Shown in pieces: positions 50,299-54,278 of a DNA stretch of 64,000 nt (position 1 is the first letter of the stretch; each line of letters starts with the position of its first letter). Made by a program: the position numbers and the translations under genes. Where the stretch lies: assembly GCF_001661915.1 (NCBI RefSeq), contig NZ_LYWY01000018.1, positions 1 through 64,000 of the forward strand, in the 5' to 3' direction. The notes below the pieces were generated by a model that saw only the letters and a list, made by a program, of their open reading frames with translations, was not told the DNA's origin and ran no database searches. The stretch is from Croceicoccus pelagius (GTDB taxonomy: Bacteria > Pseudomonadota > Alphaproteobacteria > Sphingomonadales > Sphingomonadaceae).

Positions 50299-50329
50299 GA
50301 CTTCGGTGCCGAATAGTCTAAGCTCTGCG

Positions 50330-50415: not shown

Positions 50416-52710
50416 GTGAAGTTCGGGCTCCGCCTCTTTTCAGCGCGCCGCGCCTCCTCGCAGGAGCTTGTACGCCTGTACCAGCTCGCTGCGAGCGCGC
50501 TTGCCGCGTTCCTGCTCGGCCTCGCTGCCTTGCCCCACCTGATCGACCACGCGCCGCGCTGGTTCGGCTCGGCCCTGATGGTGCAGCCCATCAGCGGGAA
50601 AATCGTTCTGATCGATACCGGTAGCGGGCAGAACTTCTCCGACGAATCTGTTGCCGAGCGGCAGGCCCAGGCCGTACGCATCGCGTCAAAGGCCGGCGCA
50701 GAGGCGATCTTCATCGAAGGCCGCTTCGTCGAATCCGATCCCGGCATACCCGATCTTGCCAAGTCGATTGCAGGCGCGAACCAGCCGGTCACCATCGGCT
50801 GGCCCCTCGCCTATACTGCGGACGAAAACTACATCGGCGTACGTGTCGATCGCCGCGCTTCCTTCCCCGGTGTGCGTGAAACCGCTCAGGCCAATCGCCA
50901 GTTGATGACCGGATTCGTGCGCGAGGCGGAGTCGCCGATGCTCGTCGCAGACAAGCAATGGAAGTCGTTCAGCGCCGCCATTTCAGGCGTCGATTACGTG
51001 CCGGGCGTCTTCCCGATCGATTACCGCCACCGCGCCACCGACATCAAGGTCTACTCGGTCGACGACTTCGCCGGCCGCTCCGCCATGTCGAGCGAATTGC
51101 GCGGCAAGCGTGTCGTCATTGCATCGATCACATCGCTGGAACGCAACGCGCTCGTCCCGAAAGACTGGCGCGTCCCCGGCATTTTCGTTGACCTGATCGC
51201 GGCCGAGACCCTGATTGGCGGTGTGCCGTTCCGCGTACCGACCGAGATCGGCTACTTCTTCGCGATCATCATGCTCTACATCGCGGCGTTGATGCCGCGC
51301 CGGATGCGTCGGAACACCTATTTCGGGACAACCGGCCTGATGGTCGCGGTTCCGCTGCTCGTTGCTCCGTTCGGTCCGATCATCAATTCGGGTGCAGGGC
51401 TTTGCGTGCTGCTCGTTTATGGCGGTCTGCGTCTCCGTTCCAGCATGCGCGAACGGGCAGCGGGGGTCGAACGCCTGTCTGGCCTGCCCAATTTCCACTC
51501 ACTGGAAGATGATTTTACCGCGGCCAGGGGCCGCCTGATCATCGCCAAGGTCGAGAATTACGAGGAAATCCTCGCCAGCCTTGAAACCGCGCACCATGCC
51601 GACTTCGTACGCCAGATCGCGCAGCGCCTGGCCATCGGCGGGACGGCGCAGATCTACACTGACACTACGGGCCACTTCGCATGGTTCGACGAACTCGAAC
51701 ACGCCAAGAGCCACGTCGCCGGACTGCTCGCCTTGACGAGCGCGCCGATCGTCACCGGCGACCGAACCCTCGACTTCAACTGCGCGTTCGGTCTCCTTGA
51801 CTGCACGATCGAGAAACCGCGCCAGGCGATCAGCGCCACTATCGTCGCCGCCGGCCGCGCAGCATCGCGCCCGACGCATATCTCTTATGTGAGCGAACAG
51901 GAAGGCTTCGACGCCAACTGGCAGCTTTCGCTTCTGGCCTCACTCGGTGACGCGATCGAGCGCGAGCAGATATACCTCGCATTCCAGCCCCAGTGTCGTC
52001 TTTCCGATGAACGCATCGTCGGGGTCGAGGCGCTTGTCCGCTGGCGCCACCCCGAACGCGGCGTCATCAGCCCGTCGCAGTTCATCCCCCAGATCGAACG
52101 TGCCGGACGCCTCAAGCCGCTGACCGCGCATACTCTGCGCCTCGCGGCCCGTGCCGCTGATCGCATCCTTTCGACGGGCATTCGCGTCAGCGTTAACGTT
52201 TCCGCGACGCTGGTGGCCGATGACGACTTCGTGCCCTTCGTGCACGAGAACATCCTGGCCGGCGGCGGGCGCCCCTCTGCCATCACGATCGAGATCACCG
52301 AGACGGCGCGAACGCCCGATATCGAACGCGCTGCCCGCAATCTCGAGAAGCTCCGTTCAATCGGCTACCACATCGCGCTCGACGATTTCGGTACGGGCGA
52401 GGCAAACCTGTCGCTGCTGGTCGCCTTGCCTTGCGACGAACTCAAGATCGACCGCAGCTTTGTGGTGCTTTCTCAGCACAGCGACCGGGCCCGCATGGTC
52501 ATCGGCGCACTCGAGAAGACGACGAGCATGGCGAACATGCGAATGGTCGTCGAAGGCATCGAGACCGAGGAAGATCGCTCCACCATGATCGAGCTCGGAT
52601 GCGAGATTGGCCAGGGCTATCTTCTCGGCAAGCCGCAGTTGCTGACCCAGTTCATCCAGATGCTAGGAAACCAGGCCGTCGATGAGCCTCGAAAATTAAC
52701 CCTTTATTAA
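50416..52710 (+). CDS. CHASE2-EAL c-di-GMP phosphodiesterase
   Basis: 764 residues from GTG 50416. TM1 (about 22-40), periplasmic CHASE2 sensor (about 45-270, ending PGIFVDLIAAETLIGG), three TM helices (about 278-340), a degenerate GGDEF-like domain (350-490, no GGDEF motif) and an EAL domain (about 505-755). The EAL catalytic features look intact: EALVRW (538), SVNVS, EITE, DDFGTG, LKIDRSF, EGIE. It should hydrolyse c-di-GMP in response to a periplasmic signal. CtrA-like sites lie at both ends of the gene. Confidence 0.9.
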   Translation: MKFGLRLFSARRASSQELVRLYQLAASALAAFLLGLAALPHLIDHAPRWFGSALMVQPISGKIVLIDTGSGQNFSDESVAERQAQAVRIASKAGAEAIFIEGRFVESDPGIPDLAKSIAGANQPVTIGWPLAYTADENYIGVRVDRRASFPGVRETAQANRQLMTGFVREAESPMLVADKQWKSFSAAISGVDYVPGVFPIDYRHRATDIKVYSVDDFAGRSAMSSELRGKRVVIASITSLERNALVPKDWRVPGIFVDLIAAETLIGGVPFRVPTEIGYFFAIIMLYIAALMPRRMRRNTYFGTTGLMVAVPLLVAPFGPIINSGAGLCVLLVYGGLRLRSSMRERAAGVERLSGLPNFHSLEDDFTAARGRLIIAKVENYEEILASLETAHHADFVRQIAQRLAIGGTAQIYTDTTGHFAWFDELEHAKSHVAGLLALTSAPIVTGDRTLDFNCAFGLLDCTIEKPRQAISATIVAAGRAASRPTHISYVSEQEGFDANWQLSLLASLGDAIEREQIYLAFQPQCRLSDERIVGVEALVRWRHPERGVISPSQFIPQIERAGRLKPLTAHTLRLAARAADRILSTGIRVSVNVSATLVADDDFVPFVHENILAGGGRPSAITIEITETARTPDIERAARNLEKLRSIGYHIALDDFGTGEANLSLLVALPCDELKIDRSFVVLSQHSDRARMVIGALEKTTSMANMRMVVEGIETEEDRSTMIELGCEIGQGYLLGKPQLLTQFIQMLGNQAVDEPRKLTLY

Positions 52711-52711
52711 C
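52696..52711. promoter_or_regulatory. CtrA box TTAA-N7-TTAAC
   Basis: A perfect match to the alphaproteobacterial CtrA consensus: TTAA (52696-52699), 7 bases, TTAAC (52707-52711). It overlaps the 3' end of the EAL gene and lies 48 bp before the tiny ORF. A further TTAAC lies at 52726-52730. Confidence 0.6.
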
Positions 52712-52758
52712 CTTAAAAAATGTGGTTAACGTGTAAGCCTCAAGAACGGAGGCCTAAC

Positions 52759-52800
52759 ATGTTTGACTGGTGTCTGAATTGGTTCGAACACTGGATGTAA
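52759..52800 (+). CDS. Tiny 13-codon Trp-rich ORF (leader peptide or small protein)
   Basis: MFDWCLNWFEHWM, preceded by GGAGG 5-8 bases before the ATG. Trp falls at positions 4, 8 and 12, so the peptide could form an amphipathic helix with an aromatic face, or be a Trp-sensing leader. Its SD region GGAGGCCT (52749-52756) can pair with the first arm of the downstream terminator (AGGCCTC), giving an antiterminator-like alternative fold. The stop codon lies in the loop of a hairpin. No trp gene is nearby. Not matched to any family I know. Confidence 0.5.
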   Translation: MFDWCLNWFEHWM

Positions 52801-52820
52801 GCATCCTCGAACCGAGTTTT
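52781..52820 (+). promoter_or_regulatory. Hairpin spanning the tiny ORF stop codon
   Basis: GGTTCGA (52781-52787) pairs with TCGAACC (52807-52813); inside, GGATG-TAAG-CATCC pairs around the stop codon. It is followed by GAGTTTTTAG, so it resembles a weak terminator whose folding a translating ribosome would block. Confidence 0.55.
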
Positions 52821-52823
52821 TAG

Positions 52824-52853
52824 AAGGCCTCGCCTCGCGGTGAGGCCTTTTTC
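52824..52853 (+). terminator. Strong intrinsic terminator after the tiny ORF
   Basis: AAGGCCTCGCC-TCGC-GGTGAGGCCTT, an 11-bp stem, followed by TTTTC. Its 5' arm can alternatively pair with the SD region of the tiny ORF. Confidence 0.85.
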
Positions 52854-52931
52854 TTTGGCTTTTCCACCTACAATTTCACAAGGAATCCTGCGGTACTGCG
52901 GTACGATCGTAGTGATCTCACTAGCTGGCGG

Positions 52932-52947
52932 TCACATCCAAATGTGA
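52932..52947. promoter_or_regulatory. ribB operator copy 1 (palindrome)
   Basis: TCACAT-CCAA-ATGTGA, a perfect 6-bp inverted repeat, 42 bp before the ribB ATG. A second palindrome TAGTGA-TC-TCACTA lies at 52910-52923. Confidence 0.55.
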
Positions 52948-52960
52948 AGATATTTGCCAA

Positions 52961-52976
52961 TCACATTCTAATGTGC
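52961..52976. promoter_or_regulatory. ribB operator copy 2 (palindrome)
   Basis: TCACAT-TCTA-ATGTGC, the same motif 29 bp downstream of copy 1 and 12 bp before the ATG. Likely the target of the HTH at the RibB N-terminus (inference). Confidence 0.55.
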
Positions 52977-52988
52977 GAAGTGGCTTTC

Positions 52989-54278
52989 ATGCAGACCACG
53001 ATCACCCCGACTCAGGAGCGAATCAGGGCCCTTGTTAACCAGGGCATGATGTCGCGTTCCGCCATCGCAAGGGCCGCCGGCCTTCATCCCAACTCGCTGC
53101 GCGACTGCACTGAGGATAGCTGGAACCCTACCTCCGAAACGCTTGTAAAGCTCGACGCCTTCCTTCGCGACAACGACGATCGCCCCGTCCTCGCGACACC
53201 TGAGGAGATCATCGACGAAGCGCGCAACGGGCGCATGTTCATCCTCGTCGATGACGAAGACCGCGAAAACGAAGGCGATCTCGTCATTCCCGCCCAGATG
53301 GCTACCCCCTCGGCGATCAACTTCATGGCGACGCATGGTCGCGGCCTGATTTGCCTCGCTCTTGGCAAGGCAAGGGTCGAGGATCTTGGCCTCGAACTCA
53401 TGAGCCGCAACAATCGTACGCGGCACGAAACGGCGTTTACGACTTCGATCGAGGCCCGCGAAGGCGTCACCACAGGCATCAGCGCGGGCGACCGTGCCCG
53501 CACGATCAGCGTGGCGATCGATTCCTCCAAGGGCGCGGACGATATCGTAACCCCCGGCCATGTCTTCCCGCTTGTCGCACGTAATGGCGGCGTGTTGGTT
53601 CGCGCCGGTCATACCGAGGCCGCCGTGGACATTTCGCGTCTTGCCGGTCTCAACCCTTCGGGCGTGATCTGCGAGATCATGAACGATGACGGCACGATGG
53701 CCCGCATGGACGATCTCATCACGTTCGCGCGTCGGCACGACCTCAAAATCGGCACGATCCGCGATCTCATCGCCTATCGCCGCAAGCACGACCATATCGT
53801 CGAACTGCGCTCCGAGACCCGTTTCGAGAGCCAGTATGGCGGCACCTGGACGGCGCGCGCCTACTACAACACGGCAACGGGTGATGAGACGTTGGCGCTC
53901 TCGCTCGGCCATATCGGCCCCGAAAAGCCGACGCTGGTGCGCATGCACACGCTCGACATCTTCAGAGACACGCTGGGCGAGCAAGGTCCGCGCTCGGGCC
54001 TCATGCAGCGCGCGATGAAGCAGATCGCGGACGAAGGCGCCGGTGTCGTCGTGATCATCAACCGTCACCGCAAGCGGCTTTGGTCCACGGTCCTCGATCT
54101 GCATTCGGGAGCCAATTCCGCACCCGACATGGACGAACTGCGCGACTATGGCGTAGGGGCGCAGGTCCTTACCGAACTGGGCGTGCAGGAGATGATCCTG
54201 CTCACCAACACGCATCATTCGCTCGTCGCGCTGGAAGGCTATGGCCTTTCGATCGCCGGCGAACGGCCGATCGACTGA
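52989..54278 (+). CDS. ribB: HTH-RibB fusion with degenerate RibA-like domain
   Basis: 429 residues from ATG 52989; starts at GTG 52944 or ATG 52971 would lie in the operators. Residues 8-62 are helix-turn-helix-like ([19 protein letters not shown]). Residues 70-268 are 3,4-dihydroxy-2-butanone 4-phosphate synthase, with [15 protein letters not shown] (88-102), [10 protein letters not shown] and PGHVFPL plus [15 protein letters not shown]. Residues 270-429 resemble GTP cyclohydrolase II but lack the zinc cysteines and the QEGRGIGL motif (NRHRKRLWS here), so that half is probably inactive. ribH follows 16 bp later. No FMN riboswitch core is seen upstream. Confidence 0.92.

Follow-up and report, generated by a model that had tools for sequence, protein, structure and literature searches.

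MgrB and SafA exemplify small proteins whose target is a sensor enzyme in the membrane, in their case PhoQ. Genes as short as those reported here, with a median of 20 codons and down to 10, fall below the length that the usual gene finders report. In Sinorhizobium meliloti, the consulted parts of two reports describe a tryptophan (Trp)-containing leader peptide, peTrpL, together with a small RNA, rnTrpL (PMC10117765, PMC7298713). We analysed a stretch of 64,000 nucleotides (nt) from Croceicoccus pelagius (contig NZ_LYWY01000018.1, positions 1 to 64,000), hereafter the window, in which a tiny open reading frame (ORF) lies on the forward strand between a gene for an EAL-domain protein and ribB. 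Comparison across genomes shows that a separate small unit, consisting of a promoter-like element, a structured leader with a Shine-Dalgarno (SD) sequence, an ORF of 10–41 codons and, in most members, a terminator, encodes a predicted Trp-rich microprotein. The same comparison shows that selection on the peptide maintains this putative microprotein, which keeps its place beside one kind of EAL gene. We judge it somewhat likelier true than false that the microprotein, encoded by its own small unit, would act as a partner of the neighbouring phosphodiesterase, which combines CHASE2, transmembrane (TM) helices, a degenerate GGDEF and EAL.

The link to the EAL gene was examined across the surrounding family, equated here with the broadly defined Sphingomonadaceae of GTDB. 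A profile built on the N-terminal region of the EAL protein hit 143 of 298 family genomes, spanning 53 of 96 genera. From 125 genomes of 47 genera we took 134 EAL loci for study, made up of 130 of the at least 150 places matched by the profile and four Croceicoccus loci from a separate search. The 16 listed places outside this set were three in Croceicoccus and G117:C1:420765, which were examined separately, G287, and the 11 weakest matches. Behind each EAL stop codon we scanned up to 260 nt for an SD-led ORF of 8–45 codons. ORFs with the strict motif [FILVW]-W-x-[WYF] were found at 91 of the 134 loci, while the opposite strand gave none and shuffled sequences an average of 0.5; with a looser motif the counts were 102, against 8 and 10.3, respectively. 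The resulting set of tiny ORFs covers 107 of the 134 loci, in 107 genomes of 44 genera; 91 entered by the strict motif and the other 16 on visual judgement, G070 (L109) and G022 (L218) being examples of weak cases, and five start positions were adjusted by hand. SD-led ORFs stand even behind distant EAL relatives, which outside the genus are 26–31% identical to the query (for example MWNFWEWLLGTGRRQQ, MRRTIWDWLFGGRHG, MRRSIWDWIFS and MTGHVRGTSHQPVRWDIWDWLLGGGQWR). The predicted tiny ORF is a follower of the EAL gene, not of ribB. On the far side, the products of the next genes, taken crudely from the longest ORF, fell into 69 clusters among the 107 loci, and the orientation of the downstream gene was unclear at 53 of the 107 by a similarly crude test.

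The 107 peptides are 10–41 residues long (median 20), with Trp making up 12% of residues, and typically have the core [FI]-W-[DE]-W-[LI]-[FL]-G. Nearly all start with ATG (106 of 107), at a median distance of 68 nt from the EAL stop. Net charge is positive in 70 of them, neutral in 17 and negative in 20. The ends are highly variable, while the aromatic core is retained in most members. At the DNA level, the core pattern WTYTGGGANTGGNTNNTNGG was found in 17 of 20 EAL-bearing genomes, with a single match in each that adjoined the EAL gene; because these 20 genomes had been picked for an ORF already seen, the figure speaks for uniqueness within a genome, not for frequency. Among 60 comparison genomes without an entry in the list of EAL matches (20 recorded as having no match, 40 missing from the list and presumably searched), the pattern occurred in two, in one case in frame in a 367-codon ORF and in the other in a long ORF but in another frame. 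A direct DNA search across the family hit 6 of 199 genomes, three from the genus and three matching the terminator part alone. Outside the family, at class level and at E values up to 1e-30, the EAL profile matched 17 of 220 genomes; no match extended past position 367 of 540, and these 17 are therefore not counted as relatives of the same gene. The corresponding loci from other alphaproteobacterial families (L260–L276) match the profile in its N-terminal two thirds only.

No tiny ORF was counted at 27 of the 134 loci. In a tree of the EAL proteins, 21 of these form one clade, which was chosen post hoc from that tree, and 107 of the other 113 proteins are accompanied by an ORF. At three further loci (G264, G138 and G304) a clear tiny ORF lies beyond the 260-nt limit (MTGFFKEFWDSLRGSSGR, MSKKAKVQKPARGFWSWLDVVLGIR and MWDWLFGGGYWA). 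G270 has a doubtful ORF (MSFVSFIQWGGGVVKG) and G168 has none. In G133 (L184), what by eye is a transposase-like ORF occupies the place of the tiny gene behind the EAL gene. In G270 (L187), MSFVSFIQWGGGVVKG stands about 90 nt behind the EAL stop with a terminator-like hairpin after it; some 350 nt further on, about 430 nt behind the stop, lies a second start with a closely similar opening, possibly a tandem copy. Nine genomes contribute two EAL copies each; in eight of them one copy, and no more, is followed by the ORF, and neither was counted in G270.

We next turn to the coding evidence. Over 26 disjoint pairs of members, the ratio of non-synonymous to synonymous change (pN/pS) came to 0.31 in the ORF's own frame and to 1.10 and 1.48 in the two alternative frames; the pairs were selected by EAL distance, and the peptide-based alignment slightly favours the true frame. 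Changes at codon positions 1, 2 and 3 numbered 68, 46 and 128, respectively. By this measure the codons are under purifying selection, and in the ORF frame only. Within the genus, the members G013 and G003, which belong to one block of similar peptides, differ by seven synonymous and no non-synonymous changes, plus one in-frame codon. The preliminary description of this DNA had proposed that a small gene of its own encodes a micro-peptide, and here the comparison bears it out: the codons are conserved in relatives through synonymous change, down to a pair with synonymous-only variation, and the 13-codon frame of the window looks like a real protein-coding gene. Eight long tiny peptides matched no Pfam or NCBIfam family, in a search whose HMMER filters drop most matches above an E value of 0.1.

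The unit around the ORF is also recognisable across the family. The hexamer GGTTAA occurred upstream of 80 of the 107 tiny ORFs, against 4.1 in shuffles, and the longer pattern TTTAC[AT]AA-N4-8-GGTTAA in 33 members, against 0.0 expected; in the genus, GGTTAA and the SD sequence GGAGG are invariant across 14 leaders. The 45-nt leader folded with a mean z of −2.07 relative to shuffles, 54 of 107 falling below −2, whereas the EAL coding control gave −0.18 and 4 of 107. The tiny ORF itself is unstructured (mean folding z of 0.14 over the 107 members). Within 110 nt after the stop, a terminator-like hairpin was found at 94 of 107 loci, compared with 4 of 107 in EAL coding sequence and 13 of 107 in shuffled sequence. 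The leader and terminator figures, along with the strong fold of the window's own 126-nt stretch (52735–52860; −55.5 kcal/mol, z of −6.2 against 200 shuffles), would suit a dual-function or mainly regulatory small RNA, whose importance lies in its leader and terminator, with the peptide in a minor role. We nevertheless consider this improbable. A leader model found the genus only (11 of 397 genomes, under strict filters). The genus leader stem was paired in 83.7% of cells against 84.7 in shuffles, and no pair changed on both sides in the 14 leaders, so that it has no covariation support. The ORF is unstructured while its codons are under selection, and cmscan against Rfam at the gathering threshold, covering the window and 20 loci, returned no RNA family except tRNAs (one in the window and one among the loci).

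The neighbouring gene in the window (50416–52710) encodes a protein of 764 residues, predicted to be a membrane protein with a CHASE2-like domain, TM helices, a degenerate GGDEF and an EAL phosphodiesterase domain. Pfam identified EAL in it with an E value of 5.8e-59. CHASE2 was assigned by Pfam in five of six other members tested, with no match in L070 or in the window protein, and all of them align in one set. A fold model of the window protein (mean predicted local distance difference test score 84; predicted template modelling score 0.51) comprises a helix at 13–36, a mixed domain at about 63–268, helices at 276–349, and then GGDEF-like and EAL regions; its best Foldseek matches are GGDEF-EAL (E value 1.7e-29) and EAL structures. 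The string GG[DE]EF is absent from all 107 EAL proteins. Eight residues, E538, N594, E626, D656, D657, K677, E713 and Q733, which we take to be the EAL catalytic set, are invariant in 23 sequences, and the enzyme looks active by this prediction.

Because the family sits right behind this enzyme in dozens of genera, the peptide is suggested to work with it. We propose that the peptide would bind the neighbouring phosphodiesterase from a position at the membrane interface; such a position, rather than a membrane-spanning one, is suggested by the peptide's shortness, its aromatic, weakly acidic core and its mostly positive net charge. Once bound, the peptide could tune phosphodiesterase activity and with it the local level of cyclic di-GMP (c-di-GMP), and its own promoter and structured leader may allow its dose to be set independently of the enzyme.

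Several observations weigh against such a partnership. Conserved adjacency can be passive. Peptide divergence tracks the CHASE2 part no better than the rest of the protein, with Spearman correlations of 0.40 for CHASE2, 0.40 for the GGDEF-like part and 0.37 for EAL; a specific co-divergence with CHASE2 was accordingly dropped, the correlations being alike across all parts. The 21 EAL proteins without an ORF are nested among ORF-bearing ones in the midpoint-rooted tree, and several deep nodes are weak (0.03–0.96). Given this nested position and the weak deep support, loss of the ORF in the 21-member clade is as possible as its being a separate gene. The Trp pattern is not universal, the core being absent from some members, such as G070 (MIDLIAIALGSRRGS) and G001 (MYEFSAAIINLLINLLYSYE). 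Finally, pairing of the SD sequence with bases ahead of it was seen in 75 of 105 leaders, only a slight excess over the 64.5 in shuffles (two of the 107 leaders have no SD under the rule used for this count). With that small excess, and with the stem lying upstream of the SD in several genera, SD occlusion was rejected as a general feature.

The partnership might take a more specific form, in which the 10–41-residue Trp-rich peptide is a dedicated ligand or cofactor of the CHASE2-EAL enzyme, a peptide signal that directly sets c-di-GMP in sphingomonad-type bacteria; we hold this to be unlikely. A version in which the peptide is exported and is the ligand of an extracytoplasmic CHASE2-like domain, the two forming a peptide-receptor pair that sets c-di-GMP, seems quite unlikely to us. 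It would fit the tight linkage to a sensor-bearing EAL protein, the absence of the ORF beside one EAL clade, a modelled domain placed between the helix at 13–36 and the helices at 276–349, and peptides with variable ends and an aromatic core kept in most, but it gains nothing from the CHASE2 region, with which the peptides show no special co-divergence. Alternatively, the product could be a small membrane-active peptide in the style of a type I toxin, located beside the EAL gene without acting on the EAL protein. Tiny aromatic peptides preceded by a structured leader whose SD is able to pair would be in line with this, yet each of the 17 genomes with a pattern match at the EAL gene has just one exact core match, the same place is occupied in 44 genera, which suggests inheritance with the EAL gene, and the core seems short for a toxin that spans the membrane. 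We consider the toxin explanation distinctly improbable and continue to favour a partner of the phosphodiesterase.

Within the window, the tiny ORF MFDWCLNWFEHWM occupies 52759–52800 (ATG at 52759–52761, TAA at 52798–52800) and reads as a divergent 13-codon member of the Trp-rich family. Its ATG lies 48 nt behind the EAL stop, inside the distance scanned across the family. Upstream of it stand a promoter element reading TTAA-N7-TTAAC (52696–52711), which overlaps the EAL stop codon (52708–52710); the heptamer GGTTAAC (52724–52730), which carries the family's best-conserved promoter-like element by the GGTTAA counts; and a predicted 5' leader stem-loop (52737–52753) in which GCCTC and GAGGC enclose the SD GGAGG (52748–52752). 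A hairpin spanning the stop codon (52781–52813; GGTTCG/CGAACC and GGATG/CATCC) folds with the same stem in the three closest species, and a putative intrinsic terminator, a hairpin followed by a T run (52822–52851 or, more widely delimited, 52822–52856), closes the small transcription unit ahead of the ribB start (ATG at 52989). The perfect CtrA box, SD, 13-codon ORF, stop-codon hairpin and terminator of the preliminary description are all present in the sequence. Its further suggestion, that SD and terminator pair and so link translation with termination, did not hold up. The SD block of the window has a 7-nt exact complement downstream, within the terminator, but a complement of at least 6 nt is limited to the three closest of the 14 genus genomes (G000, G002 and G008), with 3–5 nt in the others, and the pairing was rejected as a conserved device.

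The genus set comprises 14 genomes, the window's own (G000) included, which we take to be Croceicoccus; the six named relatives retrieved with the EAL protein all belong to Croceicoccus, which NCBI taxonomy places in Erythrobacteraceae. All 14 carry a tiny ORF of 13–24 codons between the EAL gene and ribB. The Trp residue at every fourth position that had first drawn attention to the window peptide (positions 4, 8 and 12) is real there, but it is confined to the same three closest species, and the wider family has W-x-W instead. The genus peptides diverge in blocks: MFDWCLNWFEHWM or its variant in V; MWDWALNWFERWV; MYEFSAAIINLLINLLYSYE; MLDLIVGFWWEPLKNLLFPYV; MKKQNKGFLDDILNALNWFIVTR; M(R/H/Q)NRKP... 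followed by forms like RGLIDWLWGL; and MDYQE(E)RGGGIWEWFFGEYWF. With its Trp spacing the window peptide lacks the strict motif, which is typical of the family and does not define it; of the four Croceicoccus loci in the scan, three lack the motif and G010 (MDYQEERGGGIWEWFFGEYWF) has it. The window copy is best described as a divergent predicted member, assigned by its position and by intermediate forms in the genus, not by the motif. Its EAL protein belongs to the CHASE2-EAL group in the tree of 134 EAL proteins, outside the 21-member clade without ORFs.

The box TTAA-N7-TTAAC equals the CtrA consensus given, in the consulted part of the report, for 222 sites found by chromatin immunoprecipitation sequencing in Hyphomonas neptunium (PMC7200025), and for Sphingomonas melonis the text consulted states that loss of the CtrA pathway does not harm growth or viability (PMC8116508). 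In the window the box occurs as a sole copy in 64 kb, against a mean of 0.00 in 100 shuffles, and a perfect box stands at the tiny-ORF locus in 11 of the 14 genus genomes. The pattern has 1–5 copies per genus genome, one of them in the window's genome (G000), and in none of the 14 did it exceed the reversed-pattern control, in a count of the perfect motif only. The relaxed form TTAA-N7-TTAA was found in 10 of the 107 family members, against 0.2 in shuffles, and TTTACAAAC in the upstream stretch of 26, its correspondence to the position of the box being judged by eye. The likeness to the CtrA promoters described in the Hyphomonas report (PMC7200025) lies in the exact motif at a promoter in Croceicoccus; the difference lies in the motif being unenriched in Croceicoccus genomes and, even relaxed, found in few family members. 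Of the proposed cell-cycle-controlled micro-peptide, the micro-peptide stands and the CtrA control does not: with a box enriched in none of the 14 genomes, it was rejected as established, and control of the tiny gene by CtrA is weakly supported. On the simplest view, this would be a conserved promoter whose sequence here coincides by chance with a CtrA box, and the genus may possibly have a small or relaxed CtrA regulon. GTTAAC half-sites also occur upstream of the EAL gene itself, at 50329 (GTTAACCAT) and 50387.

The position ahead of ribB had also been read as that of an attenuator, with a leader peptide, that would allow transcription to run on into ribB. A peptide, hairpins and a terminator do stand upstream of ribB in all 14 genus genomes. 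However, among 26 ribB upstream regions outside the genus there were four SD-led short ORFs, at three loci, and none of them contains Trp; the tiny ORF travels with the EAL gene instead of ribB; and ribB has palindromes of its own at 38 of 40 loci. The attenuator was therefore rejected, and we regard it as almost certainly wrong. As to an attenuator of the Trp-operon type, the gene that follows the tiny ORF in the window is ribB and no trp gene, and the cmscan runs described above matched no curated leader RNA family. The palindromes in the window, CACATCCAAATGTG (52933–52946) and CACATTCTAATGTG (52962–52975), lie upstream of the ribBA-type gene, and the pattern CACA-N6-TGTG occurs upstream of 38 of 40 ribB loci, against 0.2 expected from mononucleotide shuffling. 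It is a candidate operator, perhaps for autoregulation of ribB. The N-terminal extension of the ribBA-type protein resembles a helix-turn-helix (HTH) by eye, with no Pfam HTH match.

Among the literature matches listed, with subscription papers and preprints outside the scope of the search, no title or abstract opening dealt with this Trp-rich peptide or this EAL gene in sphingomonads. We rate the set as a family of microproteins that is itself new but belongs to a familiar general type, that of small proteins with a link to signalling enzymes; its partner and its size are unusual. The coding, position and control tests passed by this family, spread over 44 genera, show that such genes can be recognised through the link to a partner. 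If the peptide does act on the EAL enzyme, it would represent a new mode of c-di-GMP control and a ready model for the regulation of a large membrane enzyme by a very small peptide. To our knowledge, few ligands are known for CHASE2 domains, and the Trp-rich peptide is a candidate ligand to try on them.

The family resembles MgrB and SafA with PhoQ in that a very small gene product is linked to a membrane signalling protein. It differs from them in its length of 10–41 residues, its Trp-rich character with a short aromatic core and its proposed CHASE2-EAL partner. With peTrpL and rnTrpL, as far as the consulted parts of those reports describe them (PMC10117765, PMC7298713), it shares a very short peptide on a small RNA, here a predicted one, in an alphaproteobacterium. 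Unlike that system, the tiny ORF of the window precedes ribB and no trp gene, and its family is built around a W-x-W core instead of tandem Trp codons and is linked to an EAL gene.

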